64,000 nucleotides of DNA from Alphaproteobacteria bacterium (lineage in GTDB: Bacteria > Pseudomonadota > Alphaproteobacteria > UBA9219). The notes under the pieces are model-generated. The model saw only the letters and a list, made by a program, of their open reading frames with translations, searched no databases and was not told the origin of the DNA. Location: contig JAMFSS010000009.1 of the NCBI GenBank assembly GCA_026225415.1, positions 124,001 to 188,000 of the forward strand, in the 5' to 3' direction. The number at the start of each line of letters is the position of its first letter. Position 1 is the first letter of the stretch. Shown in pieces: positions 17,242 through 41,298 of the stretch. The translations under genes and the position numbers were made by a program.

Positions 17242-17290
17242 CTTGAAAACTAAGACTTACGCCTCAAGAGCGTAAGCCTAAGTTTTCAAG
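17242..17290. repeat. Dispersed imperfect palindrome, copy B, with adjacent second hairpin
   Basis: Arms CTTGAAAACTAAGACTTACGC (17242-17262) and GCGTAAGCCTAAGTTTTCAAG (17270-17290) pair with two mismatches. It is directly followed by a second imperfect hairpin CCTCTCCCC...GGGGTAGAGG (17292-17315) and preceded by CCCCCTCACCC. It lies between rpoD and its terminator. It is close in sequence to copy C at 26400. Confidence 0.85.
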
Positions 17291-17340: not shown

Positions 17341-17377
17341 AAAAAAGCCCATTCGTTAATGACGGATGGGCTTTTTT
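17341..17377 (+). terminator. Terminator after rpoD
   Basis: AAAAAAGCCCATTCG, loop TTAATGA, CGGATGGGCTTTTTT: a 15-bp stem with one T-G wobble and a T-tract. The A-tract on the other side makes it usable in both directions. Confidence 0.88.
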
Positions 17378-17477
17378 CTTTGGCAGGTTAGGGGTGGCGA
17401 TTAAAATTTGATTTTATGGTTTAGATATGTGATTTTTCCCTTGAATTATGGTTACGGTCTATGATATAAACCACGCC

Positions 17478-17918
17478 ATGAATAATGATGCAGAAGCCAC
17501 TTTGATGCGGCGCGACATGGATGTGATTATTAAGCAGTGGCGTAACCTGAAGACGTTCCCGACACCGCGCGGGTGGATTTACGCCTTGCGGATGGCATTG
17601 GGGATGACGGCGGCCGATCTGGCCAAGCGGATGAAGCAGTCGCCGATTAGCATTGTGTCGTTGGAGGCATCGGAAGCCAGGGGCACCATTCAGCTATCGA
17701 CCCTGCGCAAGGCGGCAAAGGCGATGAATTGTACGGTCGTTTATGCGGTCGTTCCCCGTTATTCGTTGGAACATATCGTGAAAAACCGGCGGCAACGGAT
17801 TGCCATGAAAGATTTGATGCCGATTATGGGCAGCAAAAGCATTCAAGAATGCAGGGAGTTGCTGCGCGATTTCACCAAGAGAGTTAAACGCAAGCGGGTT
17901 TGGCGGGAGTTGGATTAG
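17478..17918 (+). CDS. Mobile mystery protein A-type XRE regulator
   Basis: 146 residues from ATG 17478 (in-frame ATG 17448 possible). The order is a helical N-terminus, then PTPRGWIYALRMALGMTAADLAKRMKQSPISIVSLEASEARGTIQLSTLRKAAKAMNCTVVYAVVPR. This is a helix-turn-helix of the XRE type with the GWI.A.R.ALGMT and EA.GTI.L.TL..AA.A..C..VYA signatures of mobile mystery protein A (TIGR02612). That family normally precedes mobile mystery protein B, a Fic/DOC-domain protein, in mobile islands and behaves like an antitoxin/regulator. No Fic gene follows here; instead a convergent gene overlaps its last 35 bases. It probably represses its own promoter. Confidence 0.8.
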   Translation: MNNDAEATLMRRDMDVIIKQWRNLKTFPTPRGWIYALRMALGMTAADLAKRMKQSPISIVSLEASEARGTIQLSTLRKAAKAMNCTVVYAVVPRYSLEHIVKNRRQRIAMKDLMPIMGSKSIQECRELLRDFTKRVKRKRVWRELD

Positions 17919-20085
17919 CACCTTTACTAACAGGACGATCTGGATTGATAAGCCCATAATGCTTTTTGAATTCTGCTAATGATGTCCCTTTCCAATGAGC
18001 AAGCCCCCTAATACCGTATCTGAAAGCCTTATCAATTTTTGCACCAGAATCCCATTCAACTATTGACCATTCATTATTGGCATCCTTGTCCCATAAAATT
18101 TTATCGCGCATGGAAAAATATCTGCCTGCCCCGTTAATCTCTAATTCCCGTTCGAAAAACATTTTTTGCAAATAGAGAACTCTTTCATCAGTAAGGCGTT
18201 TGGTCTCACTCTGCCGACTTATTTGCAGCCCATAATGCTCAAGAAAATTGGCAAGCGACATTCCCTTACCCTTCCAATGAGCAAGTCCACGTCCACCAGA
18301 GAAAAGCGCCGCATTAATATTTACACCAGACTCTTCGACTATGTACCATTGTTCGTTAGCATCCCTATCCCATAAAACTTTATCACGGTCAGAAAAATAT
18401 CTGCCTGCCCCGTTAATCTCCAATTCCCGTTTGAAAAACATTTGTTGCAAATACAGGATTTTTTCATCACTTAGGTGCTTAGCCTCACTCAATAAACTTA
18501 CTCGTAATCCATAATATTCGAGAAATTTAGGTACAGAAGAACCTTTCCAATGAGAAAGGCCTCGCCTTCCTTCCCGAAGGCTTTCGTCAATCATATAACC
18601 AGATTCACCTTCGACAATCACCCATTGACCATCACCATCCCTGTCCCACAAAATTTTGTCTTTTTGCGCGAAATACCTACCCACACCATTAATTTCTAAT
18701 TCATGTTCAAAGAACATTTTTTGTAGGTGCAAGATTCTATCATCACTGAGGTGTCTAGCCTCACTTCGCTGGCTAACTTGCAATCCATGATGTTCGAGGA
18801 ATCTGGCAAGTGTCATCTTTTTGCCTTTCCAATGGGAAAGACCACGCGCACCTTTGGCGAAGGCAGTATCAAGACCCGTGCCGGTTTCACCCTTAACCAC
18901 AATCCATTGCCCATTAACATCTTTGTCCCATAAAGTTTTATCTGACAAAGAAAAATATCTACCCGTACCATTGACTTCTAATTCACGTTCAAAGAACATT
19001 TTTTGCCAGTGAAGCACCTTGTCATCCGTAAGGAGTCGAGCTTCACTATGCAAACTTACGCGCAAACCTTGGTGCTCAAGGAATCTGGCAAGTGTCATAT
19101 TTTTATCTTTCCAATGGGAAAGACCACGCCTGCCATGTGTTAGAGCATCATTAATAGTCGATCCCGTTTCACCTTCCACCCTGCACCATTGCCCTTGGGC
19201 ATCCCTGTCCCACAAGATCTTATCTGTTTTCGCAAAATATTTGCCCTTACCCACGGTTTCAAGTTCATGCTCAAAGAACATTTTTTGTAAATGCAGAATT
19301 CTTTCGTCACTCAACACTCTATCAATAGATGCGACCCTTCCCAATAAAAGATCGGTTATTAGAGAAAGCCACGCACCCTCTTCATCATAATGAAGGACTT
19401 GAATATCTGAATTACTTTTTAATTCATTTTTTGTTGTTGATGCCCAAAATCCTAGCGGCTTGATAGATTGAGAAATAAATACCGCTTCACCAATTTGATC
19501 ACAGATAGCAATTTGCTTACCTAAACTCTGGATCTCAACAACAGTATAAGGCTCATTGCGCAACATATGAATAGCAACTACACCGCGATACACCCGGAGG
19601 TCATCGGCGCGAATACCTATTGTCAGTAAATTTGATATAAGTTCATTCGTTTTAGGTGCTGTTTGAAGTTTGAACTTTTTTTTGCCCTTACCAGGCAAAA
19701 CAGGAATATACGTTTCTGCCGATGGAATAATACAATCCTGGACAGACTGAATATCCGCACCGCCATTTTCGAGCAATTGCCAGATATTGTCAGAGAGGCT
19801 TTCGTGCCGCCGCTGCACAAAAGCAAGGAGATCAGCGATTGTCATACGATTTGTTGCGATATTTGCAGCTTCAGCAAACTGAATTTCAACCGCACGTGTA
19901 AAGGAAACCGCCGAATGTGTAGCCCAGTTACTCATAAAATTTTCGAGTTCAGTCAGTTTCTCGGATACCGCCAGCCCCGAAACTGCAGATAAATTATAGG
20001 CATGGATGGAGCGCCAAGCCTCCGTGCGCAATTCACGGTAAATCGTGATGATTTCAGCGGGAAGTGTTAATTCATTTCTTGGCAT
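17884..20085 (-). CDS. Large protein with five tandem ~93-residue repeats, function unknown
   Basis: 733 residues from ATG 20083-20085 (AAAGGA upstream). Residues 1-257 form a unique region, with a small domain around VYRGVVAIHML...ISQSIKPLGFWAST (165-217). Five tandem repeats then start at residues 258, 352, 446, 538 and 631. Each begins L(S/T)D(E/D)(R/K)(I/V)L, continues QKMFFE(R/H)ELE, YF..DK.LWD.D...W..V, and G.RGL(S/A)HWKG, and ends (T/S)LA.FLEH.GL. There is no signal peptide or transmembrane helix, and the tail is Pro/Lys-rich. The (G.RGL....SLA.(F/L)L) core resembles long repeat arrays I recall from planctomycete proteins of unknown role; this is a recollection, not a search result. 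The DNA is AT-richer than its neighbours. The 3' end overlaps the mobile mystery gene. Confidence 0.8.
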   Translation of the reverse strand: MPRNELTLPAEIITIYRELRTEAWRSIHAYNLSAVSGLAVSEKLTELENFMSNWATHSAVSFTRAVEIQFAEAANIATNRMTIADLLAFVQRRHESLSDNIWQLLENGGADIQSVQDCIIPSAETYIPVLPGKGKKKFKLQTAPKTNELISNLLTIGIRADDLRVYRGVVAIHMLRNEPYTVVEIQSLGKQIAICDQIGEAVFISQSIKPLGFWASTTKNELKSNSDIQVLHYDEEGAWLSLITDLLLGRVASIDRVLSDERILHLQKMFFEHELETVGKGKYFAKTDKILWDRDAQGQWCRVEGETGSTINDALTHGRRGLSHWKDKNMTLARFLEHQGLRVSLHSEARLLTDDKVLHWQKMFFERELEVNGTGRYFSLSDKTLWDKDVNGQWIVVKGETGTGLDTAFAKGARGLSHWKGKKMTLARFLEHHGLQVSQRSEARHLSDDRILHLQKMFFEHELEINGVGRYFAQKDKILWDRDGDGQWVIVEGESGYMIDESLREGRRGLSHWKGSSVPKFLEYYGLRVSLLSEAKHLSDEKILYLQQMFFKRELEINGAGRYFSDRDKVLWDRDANEQWYIVEESGVNINAALFSGGRGLAHWKGKGMSLANFLEHYGLQISRQSETKRLTDERVLYLQKMFFERELEINGAGRYFSMRDKILWDKDANNEWSIVEWDSGAKIDKAFRYGIRGLAHWKGTSLAEFKKHYGLINPDRPVSKGANPTPAKPACV
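17938..19314 (-). repeat. Five tandem ~280-bp coding repeats inside the 733-residue gene
   Basis: Units in gene direction: 19314-19033, 19032-18751, 18750-18475, 18474-18196 and 18195 to ~17938, with periods of 94, 94, 92 and 93 codons. Conservation is visible at the DNA level (for example the GAACATTTTTTG- and CCATTGA-type segments recur), pointing to duplication within the gene. Units 2 and 3 are closest to each other in the MTLARFLEHHGLQVSQ region. Confidence 0.85.
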
Positions 20086-20170
20086 ATGAGTTTTTCCTTT
20101 AATTCGTATGTTTTAAGTGAACAAAAGGCTGGCAACAAGGAGAAAGAATGGTTTCAAAATAGATTAAACC

Positions 20171-24021: not shown

Positions 24022-24603
24022 TTATGCTACCGCTAGTTTTGACCGCGCTGCTGCCATAGAGGCTCTGCGTTCAGAAATATAATCTTGGGTTCTTTGCGGA
24101 AGATGAGGCTGCATATCCTCATATAAACCTTCGAAATCTGAACCATTGTTAAAACTTCCAACCGGAGCTGGGAAATAAATTGTGGCATCATTTTTTGTAT
24201 GCACATACTCCAAAAGCAAATTGATAAATTGTGAATAATCCCCCGTTGTCCCAGAATTATCAATAACATGGTTGCTAGACAACCATTCAAGATGGATAGC
24301 GCTACGAGCTAACTCGAATTCGTATCCACAATTTTCAGTTTTCATGTCATTGAGCCACGCTTGATTGACGTGCTCTCCATCCATAGTATCCCCCGTCAAT
24401 ACACGAATCCGGCAAAGCAATTCTTTTTGTGTTTTTCCGAAAGCCATAGCGAGTTCCATCATATTTGGCAAAGCCGCTTCGGCATCAGCGCCATGGCGCT
24501 CAGGTTTCAAAATATTCGTAAGATCAGCGGCGCCTTCTTTATTAACAGCAAGGGCAAGTTCGGACGAAAAAAGCGAACCGTCTAAAATTTTTGAAATATT
24601 CAT
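24022..24603 (-). CDS. Hypothetical protein
   Basis: 193 residues from ATG 24603, chosen because GGAG sits seven bases upstream; the frame is open further (to 24693), but that extension has no ribosome site. The protein is soluble, acidic and mostly helical in appearance. MMELAMAFGKTQKELLCRI is a probable amphipathic helix, and an Asp/Asn-rich segment (SSNHVIDNSGTTGDYSQF) lies in the middle. No family is recognised. The gene is AT-richer than flanking lysS and converges on the phosphatase-like gene with a 7-base gap. Confidence 0.6.
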   Translation of the reverse strand: MNISKILDGSLFSSELALAVNKEGAADLTNILKPERHGADAEAALPNMMELAMAFGKTQKELLCRIRVLTGDTMDGEHVNQAWLNDMKTENCGYEFELARSAIHLEWLSSNHVIDNSGTTGDYSQFINLLLEYVHTKNDATIYFPAPVGSFNNGSDFEGLYEDMQPHLPQRTQDYISERRASMAAARSKLAVA

Positions 24604-24714
24604 TTGCAATCTCCATTTAATATGCGGATGAAAGAAACTAATCATAAACAAATGCAGGGCGCAAGCACTCGTTATAGTTAACGCAGCGATCAACTACAAT
24701 AAACATGAAGAGGT

Positions 24715-33942: not shown

Positions 33943-35076
33943 ATGAACAGAATGGAAATCGCCGATAAGTTTTTTACCGTTGCGTGGGGCAAATTGCCGG
34001 GCGGCAATCCGTTGCAAGATGAACAGGCCGTTAAAGATTTTGGCAAAAACATTTTGCGCGCTTATGAAGCGCTTTCTGAAACAGACAAAGCGAAAGCCGA
34101 TGCGGTTTGGCAAAAATGGATGGGGAAAGCCAATGAGGCAAGCGTAGCGTTGCCCTATCAAACGCCTGCCGAACGTTTTAACGGCAATTTTCCTTCATTT
34201 GATTTTGAAGAATCGGACATTATTATCAACCATACGCTGGCGAACGCCATCGCGCAAAAAAACCCGACCCTGCTTTTGACCGGCGGCGGTACGGGCAGCG
34301 GCAAAAGCACTTTGTTGAGCAAGCTTATCAAAGAAGAAATGCCGCATGCCGTTTTGCTGGACCCCGATGAAGGGGTTCTGGAAAATCACGGGCCTTATTT
34401 ATGGGCGCGGGCGGTTTTGAAAATGGCGTTGGGCAAGCCCGTTGCGCCCGGCGCGTCTGTCGAAGAAATCATTGCACAACGCAACGAATGGCGTTTGCCA
34501 GCCTATGACATTTTCCGCGCCGCGTCGAACGCCATTAATACCGAGATTGCGAGCGAGGTCGTTGCCAAGGGTTATGACGCCGCGTTTGGTTTTACGGACA
34601 TCAAGGGTGATGGCTTTGCCGTTCAATTACCTGCCTATAAACAGGCGGGCTATAAACTGGATTATGTGGCCGTTTTCGCCCGTTTGGATGTGCGCAATGC
34701 GTTGGAAAACTATCGCGAGCGCCCGGCAGACCCCGCCGACCGCGTGAACAAGGTGCGTGATTTTATAGGCGCTTTGCCGGATTATCTCGAGCTTTGCGAC
34801 CGCACGCGCTTTTATATCGCGGATCACGGCCACCAGTTTACGCAGGTTGCAACAAGCGAAAAGGGCAAGGATGTTGTGCTTAACCACAGCCCTTCTATGG
34901 CCGCGATTTATGACATGATGTTGGTTGAGCAAACCCGCGCCGTTGTGAGCGACAAGCCAGAGATGGGCAAAGCGATTGGCGATAGTTTCAGGTTTTTGAT
35001 TGAGACATTCGAGGCGCCGCATGTGGCGGCCGCTTATCGCGAGCCGGTTGTGCCACCGTCAATATTGAAGCATTAA
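33943..35076 (+). CDS. Zeta-toxin-like P-loop kinase
   Basis: 377 residues, with AAGGA seven bases before the ATG. After a helical N-terminal ~100 residues comes LLLTGGGTGSGKSTLLSKL (~110-128), a Walker A typical of zeta-toxin/UDP-GlcNAc kinase and related P-loop kinases. It is followed by AVLLDPDEGVLENHGPY and TDIKGDGFAVQL (possible Walker B/substrate loops). Zeta toxins phosphorylate UDP-sugars and stall wall synthesis; here no epsilon-like antitoxin precedes or follows, and the protein is longer than classical zeta toxins, so it may be a different nucleotide/sugar kinase. Codon usage resembles core genes, unlike the AT-rich islet before it. Confidence 0.7.
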   Translation: MNRMEIADKFFTVAWGKLPGGNPLQDEQAVKDFGKNILRAYEALSETDKAKADAVWQKWMGKANEASVALPYQTPAERFNGNFPSFDFEESDIIINHTLANAIAQKNPTLLLTGGGTGSGKSTLLSKLIKEEMPHAVLLDPDEGVLENHGPYLWARAVLKMALGKPVAPGASVEEIIAQRNEWRLPAYDIFRAASNAINTEIASEVVAKGYDAAFGFTDIKGDGFAVQLPAYKQAGYKLDYVAVFARLDVRNALENYRERPADPADRVNKVRDFIGALPDYLELCDRTRFYIADHGHQFTQVATSEKGKDVVLNHSPSMAAIYDMMLVEQTRAVVSDKPEMGKAIGDSFRFLIETFEAPHVAAAYREPVVPPSILKH

Positions 35077-38717: not shown

Positions 38718-39572
38718 ATGGTCATGATTATAGACGGCGCAGCGGTCGCCAAGCGCATACGCGCGGAGTTGGCGCAACAGGTTTTGGGTGAGAAATTATC
38801 GCCGGGTTTGGCCGTGGTGTTGGTGGGCGAAGACCCCGCCAGCCAGGTGTATGTGCGCAACAAATCACGCGCAGCATCCGAAGCGGGGATTGAATCCTGG
38901 CAACACACCTTGCCCGCAGAGACAACGCAGGCGGAATTATTGGCGTTGGTTGATAATTTGAACAAAGACGCGAAGGTGCATGGGATTTTGGTGCAGTTGC
39001 CCCTGCCCCGCCAGATTGATGCGCAGACTGTTATCGCCGCGATTTCGCCCGACAAGGATGTGGATGGGTTTCATCCGGTCAATGCGGGGCGGTTGAGTTT
39101 GGGGTTGCCGAGTTTTGTTCCATGCACGCCGCAAGGTTGCATGATTTTGTTGCGCGAGGCGTTGCCGGATTTGGCGGGCAAGCGCGCGATCGTTCTGGGG
39201 CGGTCGAATATCGTCGGCAAACCGGTTGCGCAATTATTGTTGCAAGCCGACTGCACCGTGACGATTGCCCATTCGCGCACACGCGATCTGGCCGGGGAAT
39301 GCCGCCGCGCCGATATTGTGATTGCCGCGATTGGCAAGCCGGAATTTGTGAAGGGCGATTGGATTAAAGAGGGTGCTGTTGTGATTGATGTCGGCATCAA
39401 CCGGATTGATGATGTGGTAAATACGGGCAAAACCAAATTGGTTGGCGATGTAGATTTTGCCGAAGCATCGAAACGCGCAGCCGCCATTACCCCGGTGCCG
39501 GGTGGCGTCGGCCCCATGACGATTGCGTGTTTGTTGCGTAATACGGTTTTGGGTGCGCGGCAAGCGGGTTAG
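38718..39572 (+). CDS. folD: Bifunctional methylenetetrahydrofolate dehydrogenase/cyclohydrolase
   Basis: 284 residues, standard length. [21 protein letters not shown] carries the catalytic Tyr-x3-Lys; [11 protein letters not shown] and [16 protein letters not shown] are family signatures, and [18 protein letters not shown]-type (here [15 protein letters not shown]) binds NADP. It interconverts 5,10-methylene-THF and 10-formyl-THF, complementing fhs. It ends with a 4-base overlap with the convergent methyltransferase gene, leaving no room for a separate terminator. Confidence 0.96.
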
Positions 39573-40627
39573 GCGGCAAAATTTTGTCCGCCAGACACCA
39601 AATTATTTTCTAAAATTTGGCACTGATCATCTTTTAACAAATAGAGCATCATGCCTGTTTCATGCTCCCATTGTTGAACGGGCTTTAAGCCCGCGCGTTG
39701 AACACATTGTTCAAAAAAATCGCGGCCAAATTTATAGGAATTGCATAAATGGATTTTTTGCCCTTTGTGAATATGGCGTGGAAACCCACCAAGTTCAAAA
39801 GTTTGGGCTTCTCTTGCAACAGCCACGCTGGCCAACAAATGGTTTTGAGGAAAAAATTCAACATCATAATCAAACAAGGTAGGATCAAAATTCTTCACCG
39901 GTAATTCCTGTTTCATGCGTTTTAACATACCCAGGCAGAAACGTTCTGTTGCAGGCGAAACATAGGCCGACTTTAAAAAATCTGAATTTTGGTTTGTGTC
40001 GATTGTTAAAAGCAACCAGCCATGCCCACATAATTGCGAAAGGTATTTCATTACGTTGATAAGATTGTATCCTATATTTTGGTCGGCAATAGCCCCGTCA
40101 ATATTACCCAATGTAAGCCCGTTCATAACCCCAAGCGCGGGAGATTGTTTGGCTATTTTTTTGTTGGTAAGAAAAAATAAATCAATCTTCTCTGTTTTTA
40201 TGGCAAGACTTTCTTCAAACTCAGAAGATAATCGCTTTATTTCTTCGAGCGCCCTGTCACAGAAATCAACACCAATATAATTTTGTGACTCCAATAACTG
40301 CGTGATAGGCAATGCGTAACGCTTGAAAGAAACATCTCCGCCAGCACCAAGATCAATATAGTCTGTGCCTTTTGGAATACCCCATTTATCGATATCTAAA
40401 GCTGCTTGCTTGATTAGCGCCAGATCACCCTTAGGGGGATAATATTTTTCATTATATTCAATATAATTACCCCAATTCTTTCCATCATATAAATATTTGC
40501 CGCAACAACCTGCCTTTGGGGCGTAACCTGACGCATCGGGAAACAAGCCCATCATATCGTCAAGAAAATCTTCATCATAAAGGGGCTGTTTATCAATTAT
40601 TCTTTGCCTGTGTATTTTGCCCTTCAC
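39569..40627 (-). CDS. EgtD-like histidine N-alpha-methyltransferase family protein
   Basis: 352 residues from GTG 40627, chosen because AAAGGAGG precedes it and GTGA overlaps the stop of the upstream regulator; the frame is open to 40672. [37 protein letters not shown] is the SAM-binding motif I of the Methyltransf_33/EgtD family, preceded by [15 protein letters not shown]-type sequence (here [14 protein letters not shown]). The C-terminal part ([37 protein letters not shown]) follows EgtD topology. EgtD trimethylates histidine for ergothioneine, but the substrate here is unproven and no egtB or egtE partner is present. AT-rich for this genome. Confidence 0.65.
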
Positions 40628-41298
40628 GTCTCCTCCTTTGTTCGCAGCGAAGGAATATGGGCGAGCTCCCAAATTTCATCGAATTGCGCACAATAAGTTG
40701 AGGAAATGGCTGGCGATGTTACCAGAATGATTTTAGGCGCTGGGTCAGCATCAAACGTAAAAATGCAAACGGTATCCCCAAATATATAATAAGGCACTGC
40801 AGCCGGTATATTAGAAGGATACCATCTATAGTCCGCGTAATTTGTGCTGATAAAATTATTATCGCCATCTTTTAAAATAGCGCGCACATAAATATCTTTT
40901 TTAGTTTTCACTAAATTTGCCATTCGCAAACGATGCATATCGGCAATCTTAGGTGCATATTTTTCGAGGGCATTTTCCTCTATACCTATTTGGCGAATGA
41001 TGCCACCGGAGGATTGCGCAAATGAAAAAACGCTTTCCGAGAAACGAGCGAGCCCTCTTTCTCCGTTCAATACTTCGACGCCTTCGGGACGAAAGCGCAC
41101 GCCTTCATTTTCCATAAACTCGATGCGCTTTTCATCGAAAACGCGGCCAATATCCGCAATCGTTCCTTCGCGCGGTTGCACCGAACCGTCTTCGATTTTG
41201 CTGATGCCTTGTTTGGTCAGGCCTGCTGCGACAGCAAGTTCGTCCTGGCTGATATCCAGTAAGGCGCGTGCGGCACGGATTTGGCGACCTGTGATCAC
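40624..41298 (-). CDS. XRE-family transcriptional regulator with C-terminal ligand-type domain
   Basis: 224 residues from GTG 41298. Residues 1-60 are a helix-turn-helix: ITGRQIRAARALLDISQDELAVAAGLTKQGISKIEDG. The remaining ~150 residues form an alpha/beta domain (QIGIEENALEKYAPKIADMHRLR, ... VPYYIFGDTVCIFTFDADPAPKIILVTSP) reminiscent of the effector domains of TrmB-like or PLD-fold sensors; this is a loose resemblance. It overlaps the EgtD-like gene by GTGA, so the two are co-translated. A 231-bp AT-rich gap separates it from a divergent pair of tiny genes it may also regulate. Confidence 0.75.
   Translation of the reverse strand: MITGRQIRAARALLDISQDELAVAAGLTKQGISKIEDGSVQPREGTIADIGRVFDEKRIEFMENEGVRFRPEGVEVLNGERGLARFSESVFSFAQSSGGIIRQIGIEENALEKYAPKIADMHRLRMANLVKTKKDIYVRAILKDGDNNFISTNYADYRWYPSNIPAAVPYYIFGDTVCIFTFDADPAPKIILVTSPAISSTYCAQFDEIWELAHIPSLRTKEET

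Follow-up and report, generated by a model that had tools for sequence, protein, structure and literature searches.

The question raised by this locus is what a protein made largely of an unnamed tandem repeat does in an alphaproteobacterial genome. The window analysed here, a stretch of 64,000 nucleotides, contains an intact gene for such a protein (Table 1), with an AGGA motif at 20095–20098 on the minus strand, 9 nt 5′ of the ATG. The five repeat units begin at residues 258, 352, 446, 538 and 631, giving spacings of 94, 94, 92 and 93 residues, and the fifth is ∼92 residues long. This periodicity is mirrored in a self-comparison of the protein, where the top lags were 94, 185, 279 and 188 residues. 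The ORF list and the self-comparison thus bear out the initial annotation, which had described a 733-residue frame with five tandem units, both in its coordinates and in its unit lengths.

Table 1. Coordinates of the repeat gene, its parts and its neighbour in the window
Feature	Position	Strand	Basis
Intact CDS, 733 aa, N-terminal domain and five tandem repeats	17884..20085	-	ORF list, ATG start
N-terminal domain (residues 1-257)	19315..20085	-	Found in one other protein (G026)
Conserved alpha/beta core (residues 132-228)	19402..19692	-	Alignment to P0003
Repeat unit 1 (residues 258-351)	19033..19314	-	
Repeat unit 2 (residues 352-445)	18751..19032	-	
Repeat unit 3 (residues 446-537)	18475..18750	-	
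Repeat unit 4 (residues 538-630)	18196..18474	-	
Repeat unit 5 (residues 631-722)	17920..18195	-	
HTH protein resembling mobile mystery protein A, convergent with the repeat gene	17448..17918	+	TIGR02612 match

Compared in pairs, the units are 50–67% identical in protein sequence and only 58–70% identical in DNA; dN among them is 0.25–0.46, while dS ranges from ∼1 to saturated. The low dN against a dS of ∼1 or saturated, together with the divergence in DNA, indicates that the units are old, selected duplications, which disposes of the concern that the repeats might be an artefact of assembly. Purifying selection has acted on the units since duplication, as seen from the comparison of dN with dS, although this signal could predate arrival of the gene in its host.

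The initial annotation had also attached the gene to a mobile island through the neighbouring regulator, and this connection proved weak. The HTH protein matches TIGR02612 with 107 bits, below the cut-off of 122.6. It therefore resembles protein A of the mobile mystery A/B module (TIGR02612/TIGR02613), but no Fic (mobile mystery B) partner adjoins it, and its own genome has only sub-cut-off B matches, far away. In the sister genomes G011, G016 and G023, a Fic gene comes immediately after a true A gene. The HTH gene is host-like in composition (GC 53%, GC3 68%), unlike the repeat gene, which has a GC of 42% and a GC3 of 36% against ∼52% and 56–68% in its neighbours, in line with the low GC noted at the outset. 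The two genes are convergent, overlap at their 3′ ends by 35 bp and do not form an operon. Given the host-like GC, the sub-cut-off score and the missing Fic gene, there is no need to assume that the HTH gene and the repeat gene arrived together; their adjacency is a weak link and not evidence of a shared island.

Several other features of the window were recorded. An inverted repeat of 21 nt, near-perfect (90% complementary) and with a loop of 7 nt, lies at 17242–17290 between rpoD and the HTH gene and occurs once in the window; a separate terminator-like hairpin is found at 17341–17377. Further away, a 223-residue ORF at 24022–24693 (−), in a stretch of lower GC, has no Pfam match at E 1. A 377-residue protein encoded at 33943–35076 (+), within a low-GC stretch at 32–35 kb, has the P-loop GGGTGSGKST and by eye resembles a zeta-toxin-type kinase. 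At 39569–41298 (−), an XRE-type HTH gene overlaps a gene that looks, by eye, like a methyltransferase of EgtD type, and this pair sits where the GC of the window is lowest (40–42 kb, 42%).

Searches with the 733-residue protein gave no family match in Pfam, NCBIfam, PADLOC or PDB sequences, and its PHROG matches were all sub-threshold. The supposition that the family is unrecognised was therefore correct for all of the libraries searched. The PADLOC models of known anti-phage defence proteins did not match, nor did the HA (PF03457) profile, and none of the parts of a type ISP enzyme (Mrr-like nuclease, SF2 translocase, methylase, target-recognition domain) was found in the protein.

A kinship with planctomycete arrays, suggested in the initial annotation, proved to be real. 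Pfam and NCBIfam hold no model for the planctomycete-type repeat. Our query was a consensus of this repeat, and only its database matches were used as evidence. It retrieved 21 loci, nearly all named Planctomycetota, from which 114 units were cut to build an HMM, with the window sequences left out. This HMM scored 48.1 bits against the whole window protein and 54.2 bits against its repeat part, compared with a maximum of 7.1 bits over 1,500 shuffles (500 full and 1,000 preserving internal repetition). It also scored 119.8 bits against P0001, encoded elsewhere in the same genome, 61.0 against P0002 and 24.5 against a protein of G026. The reciprocal search was significant, and profile–profile comparison with the planctomycete units gave a probability of 98.9% for 13 alphaproteobacterial-type units and 93.9% for the five window units alone. 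On these sequence comparisons, the window repeat is a member of the planctomycete RGLPGG repeat family. Among 149 genomes sampled from the planctomycete phylum the array was found in two, one of which was the centre genome of the query, and no shared partner genes were seen adjoining six planctomycete loci, inspected by eye as ORFs without family annotation.

The planctomycete ‘RGLPGG-SLA-LL’ arrays have in common with the window units an L(T/S)..(I/V)L start, RGL and SL(A) near the end, and the same variable columns. They differ in length, the window units having 92–94 residues against ∼73 in the planctomycete units; in the window units the hairpin is longer, and helix 1 is followed by an insert of 6 residues. 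The tryptophan of the family's GETW motif is a glycine in the window units, and the window protein is also set apart from the planctomycete arrays by its N-terminal domain.

An AlphaFold model of units 2 and 3, built from 94 aligned pairs, reached a pLDDT of 89.3, with most unit residues above 90; the pTM of 0.57 reflects the loose coupling of the units. Each unit is predicted to form a long helix 1, a beta hairpin, helix 2 and a short helix 3. At E 0.001 the two-unit model had no match in the PDB (Foldseek and VIA-align) or in BFVD (Foldseek), and its best VIA-align matches, with Z of 2.3 and 2.1, were noise. The repeat fold may be new, though a missing PDB match is no proof of this. In the window protein six columns (29, 44, 52, 53, 56 and 60) have five different residues in the five units, and four of these fall on one side of helix 2, with a spacing of i, i+1, i+4 and i+7/8. 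When the families are aligned on their motifs, the variable helix 2 columns of the window correspond to planctomycete columns 37, 38, 41 and 45, among them the three helix 2 columns that vary most in that set. In the model this side of helix 2 may resemble a recognition face, and may equally be any exposed face. Variation on a surface helix is also seen in many protein-binding repeats.

Elsewhere the array is fused to an enzyme. An SF2 helicase, absent from the window protein, stands N-terminal to the array in four proteins: P0001, L027, L038 and G915. P0001, from contig C4 of the 2.02 Mb genome that contains the window (G000; L006:3888–8015), is 1,375 residues long, and in it a ResIII/DEAD SF2 helicase (E 3.6e-14) precedes five units. 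L027 combines Mrr_cat_2, ResIII and Helicase_C with six units, L038 has SF2 and six units, and G915 SF2 and four. Whilst the chassis of L038 and G915 are related (43% identity over 898 residues), BLASTP among the helicase parts of P0001, L027 and L038 found no convincing similarity, so the repeat is carried on at least three chassis. P0001 also extends at its C terminus for another ∼400 residues that match no Pfam family, and the repeat region of its gene has a GC of 41% where the flanking genes have 53–54%.

The L027 enzyme allows the position of the array to be compared directly. Its residues 1–641 are 52% identical to a plasmid-encoded Mrr–SF2 enzyme of Rhodococcus qingshengii, and at the same joint L027 continues with its six repeats, from residue 650, and the Rhodococcus enzyme with eight HA repeats (PF03457), from residue 648. 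Both are tandem arrays directly behind an SF2 helicase; on this 52% identical chassis the repeat thus fills the place of the HA array, without detectable sequence kinship to it. No HA matches were found in P0001, L027 or L038. Homology of the repeat to HA was rejected, hhalign giving a probability of 0.2% against 12 real HA units. A search of ten repeat-carrying genomes found no HA either, but it was also silent in control genomes and proves little. The literature offered no paper on the function of HA, nor an explained function for the tail arrays of SF2 restriction helicases.

PADLOC assigns the L027 chassis to a restriction enzyme–methyltransferase (E 7e-143), and its more distant relatives are type ISP restriction-modification enzymes, which have a methylase and a specificity domain at the position of the array. 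The mechanism of the type ISP enzymes LlaGI and LlaBIII has been described (PMC7049714, PMC4872093). Their Mrr-like nuclease and SF2 translocase are homologous to the L027 chassis, at about 36–38%, whereas their methylase and target-recognition domain are missing from L027. The record containing L027 (CALQJI020000040.1) is titled as a Klebsiella pneumoniae MAG, yet its repeat content clearly marks the contig as foreign: the repeat enzyme is of planctomycete type, and the bin has probably been mislabelled.

The reading that we favour, and to which we give about an even chance, is that the window protein would be a nucleic-acid-binding array freed from its helicase, acting as a solo DNA-binding accessory factor. 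The repeat would be a portable nucleic-acid-binding module, with DNA the most likely ligand, that as a rule makes up a C-terminal array on SF2 restriction-type helicases, where related enzymes have HA repeats or methylase and target-recognition parts. In the window gene the array, with neither helicase nor nuclease, would work from behind a different N-terminal domain, and that domain would supply the output, by contacting a partner or by making a second contact with DNA. If binding is specific, the variable side of helix 2 could be the reading face. The basic character of the arrays (the stand-alone arrays have a pI of 10.2–11.9), the swap at the HA joint, the confident fold of the unit and the shared variable columns of helix 2 all count for DNA binding. 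Against it count the almost neutral pI of the whole protein (7.1, with 8.7 for its repeats) and the lack of a PDB-named DNA-binding fold; nor is a partner gene visible.

For the N-terminal domain, Pfam had nothing below E 0.06, its profile matched only its own genome among 398 genomes of the phylum, and in the planctomycete loci there were chance-level matches only. The one other protein found to contain it, P0003, lies at a contig end in G026 and has the window-type N-terminal domain followed by one planctomycete-type unit; its residues 122–220 align with residues 132–228 of the window protein (30% identity over 99 residues, E 4e-16). A model of the domain had a pLDDT of 46 overall and ∼62 over residues 145–250. 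With VIA-align, the top matches to residues 141–250 of this model were three entries of the TnsE C-terminal domain, with Z of 7.7, a level (7–8) that is typical of unrelated best matches and hence background, and two entries of the MotA C-terminal domain matched the N-terminal domain with Z of 6.5 and 6.3. Neither TnsE nor MotA entries were among the best 50 Foldseek matches listed. The C-terminal domains of TnsE and MotA are DNA-binding domains, and the modelled likeness to them is a weak lead only.

Of the alternatives, the one that survives best, and which we nevertheless consider unlikely, is that the array is a protein–protein scaffold, with units that bind peptides or each other and an array that tethers partners; on the helicases it would be a tail for oligomerisation or for docking a partner. 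The variable face of helix 2 would suit protein recognition equally well, and the units of the window protein are less basic than those of planctomycetes. However, the strongly basic pI of most arrays fits nucleic acid better, as does the finding that on restriction chassis the array stands in for HA, methylase and target-recognition modules.

It is also conceivable, though distinctly improbable, that the protein is an anti-phage factor which cooperates or competes with the SF2 helicase on contig C4, in that the shared array would let both read the same DNA sites, one protein serving as a marker or regulator while the other would be the engine. Within the genus both arrays are confined to this genome, both genes have a low GC at the repeats (41–42%), and elsewhere the repeat is found on a restriction-type chassis. 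Set against this, the units of the two proteins are ∼28–35% identical to each other, compared with 50–67% within the window protein, the genes lie on different contigs with no adjacent defence genes, and G026 has a similar protein of N-terminal domain plus repeat with no helicase fusion found by profile. More generally, the support for a defence-type role is indirect, because it comes from the same repeat tailing restriction-type SF2 helicases elsewhere, and any part of the window protein in defence would be conjectural. No defence or mobile genes were recognised adjoining the window gene, the C4 locus, the G026 locus or the locus in G031, a genome from another family of the same order that encodes a 315-residue protein of three units. 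Thus the suggestion of an accessory factor in defence against phage is retained as regards ‘accessory’, and its neighbourhood gives no backing to the defence part.

The gene is accessory and sporadic: it is missing from nine congeners and almost throughout the order, and its composition is an outlier. A 13-unit profile matched two of 33 genomes of the order and, among 385 genomes of the class, only the genome of the window itself. No close relatives were found by peptide pattern in the genome and viral contigs searched, nor by tblastn of the whole protein against plasmids and phages. A third genome match, in G194 (E 5.7e-4, two stops), was set aside. An empty site at fhs was sought by synteny across the congeners, and none could be demonstrated because the neighbours of fhs differ in each of them. 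The gene was probably acquired horizontally. Of the first interpretation as a whole, then, the planctomycete kinship, the unlisted family and the accessory nature are kept, and the link to a mobile island is weak.

Such a solitary gene, an outlier in composition without an orthologue in nine congeners, might be a mere passenger, an acquired orphan that has no role in its host and is heading for decay. We think this a poor explanation, as the frame is open over its full length and preceded by a ribosome-binding motif, and the units have been under purifying selection since duplication, though this last signal could be older than the arrival. Very improbable, finally, is an undescribed modular DNA-recognition array, read out unit by unit through helix 2 and passed around between restriction helicases, stand-alone arrays and regulators such as the window gene. 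A variable helix 2 face is seen, a TALE-like code of one unit per base is hypothetical here, and position-matched conservation of units among L038, G915 and L027, which would be a sign of a fixed code, was not clear.

For the favoured solo DNA-binding factor, the window protein matters because a second, unrelated array at the HA joint now comes with an enzyme-free version, a small soluble object on which the job of the array can be tested. If the array does not bind specific DNA, the window gene is an unexceptional accessory gene whose repeat has no name. If it does, this would explain how the helicases choose their targets, and the repeat would be a new modular DNA-binding repeat.
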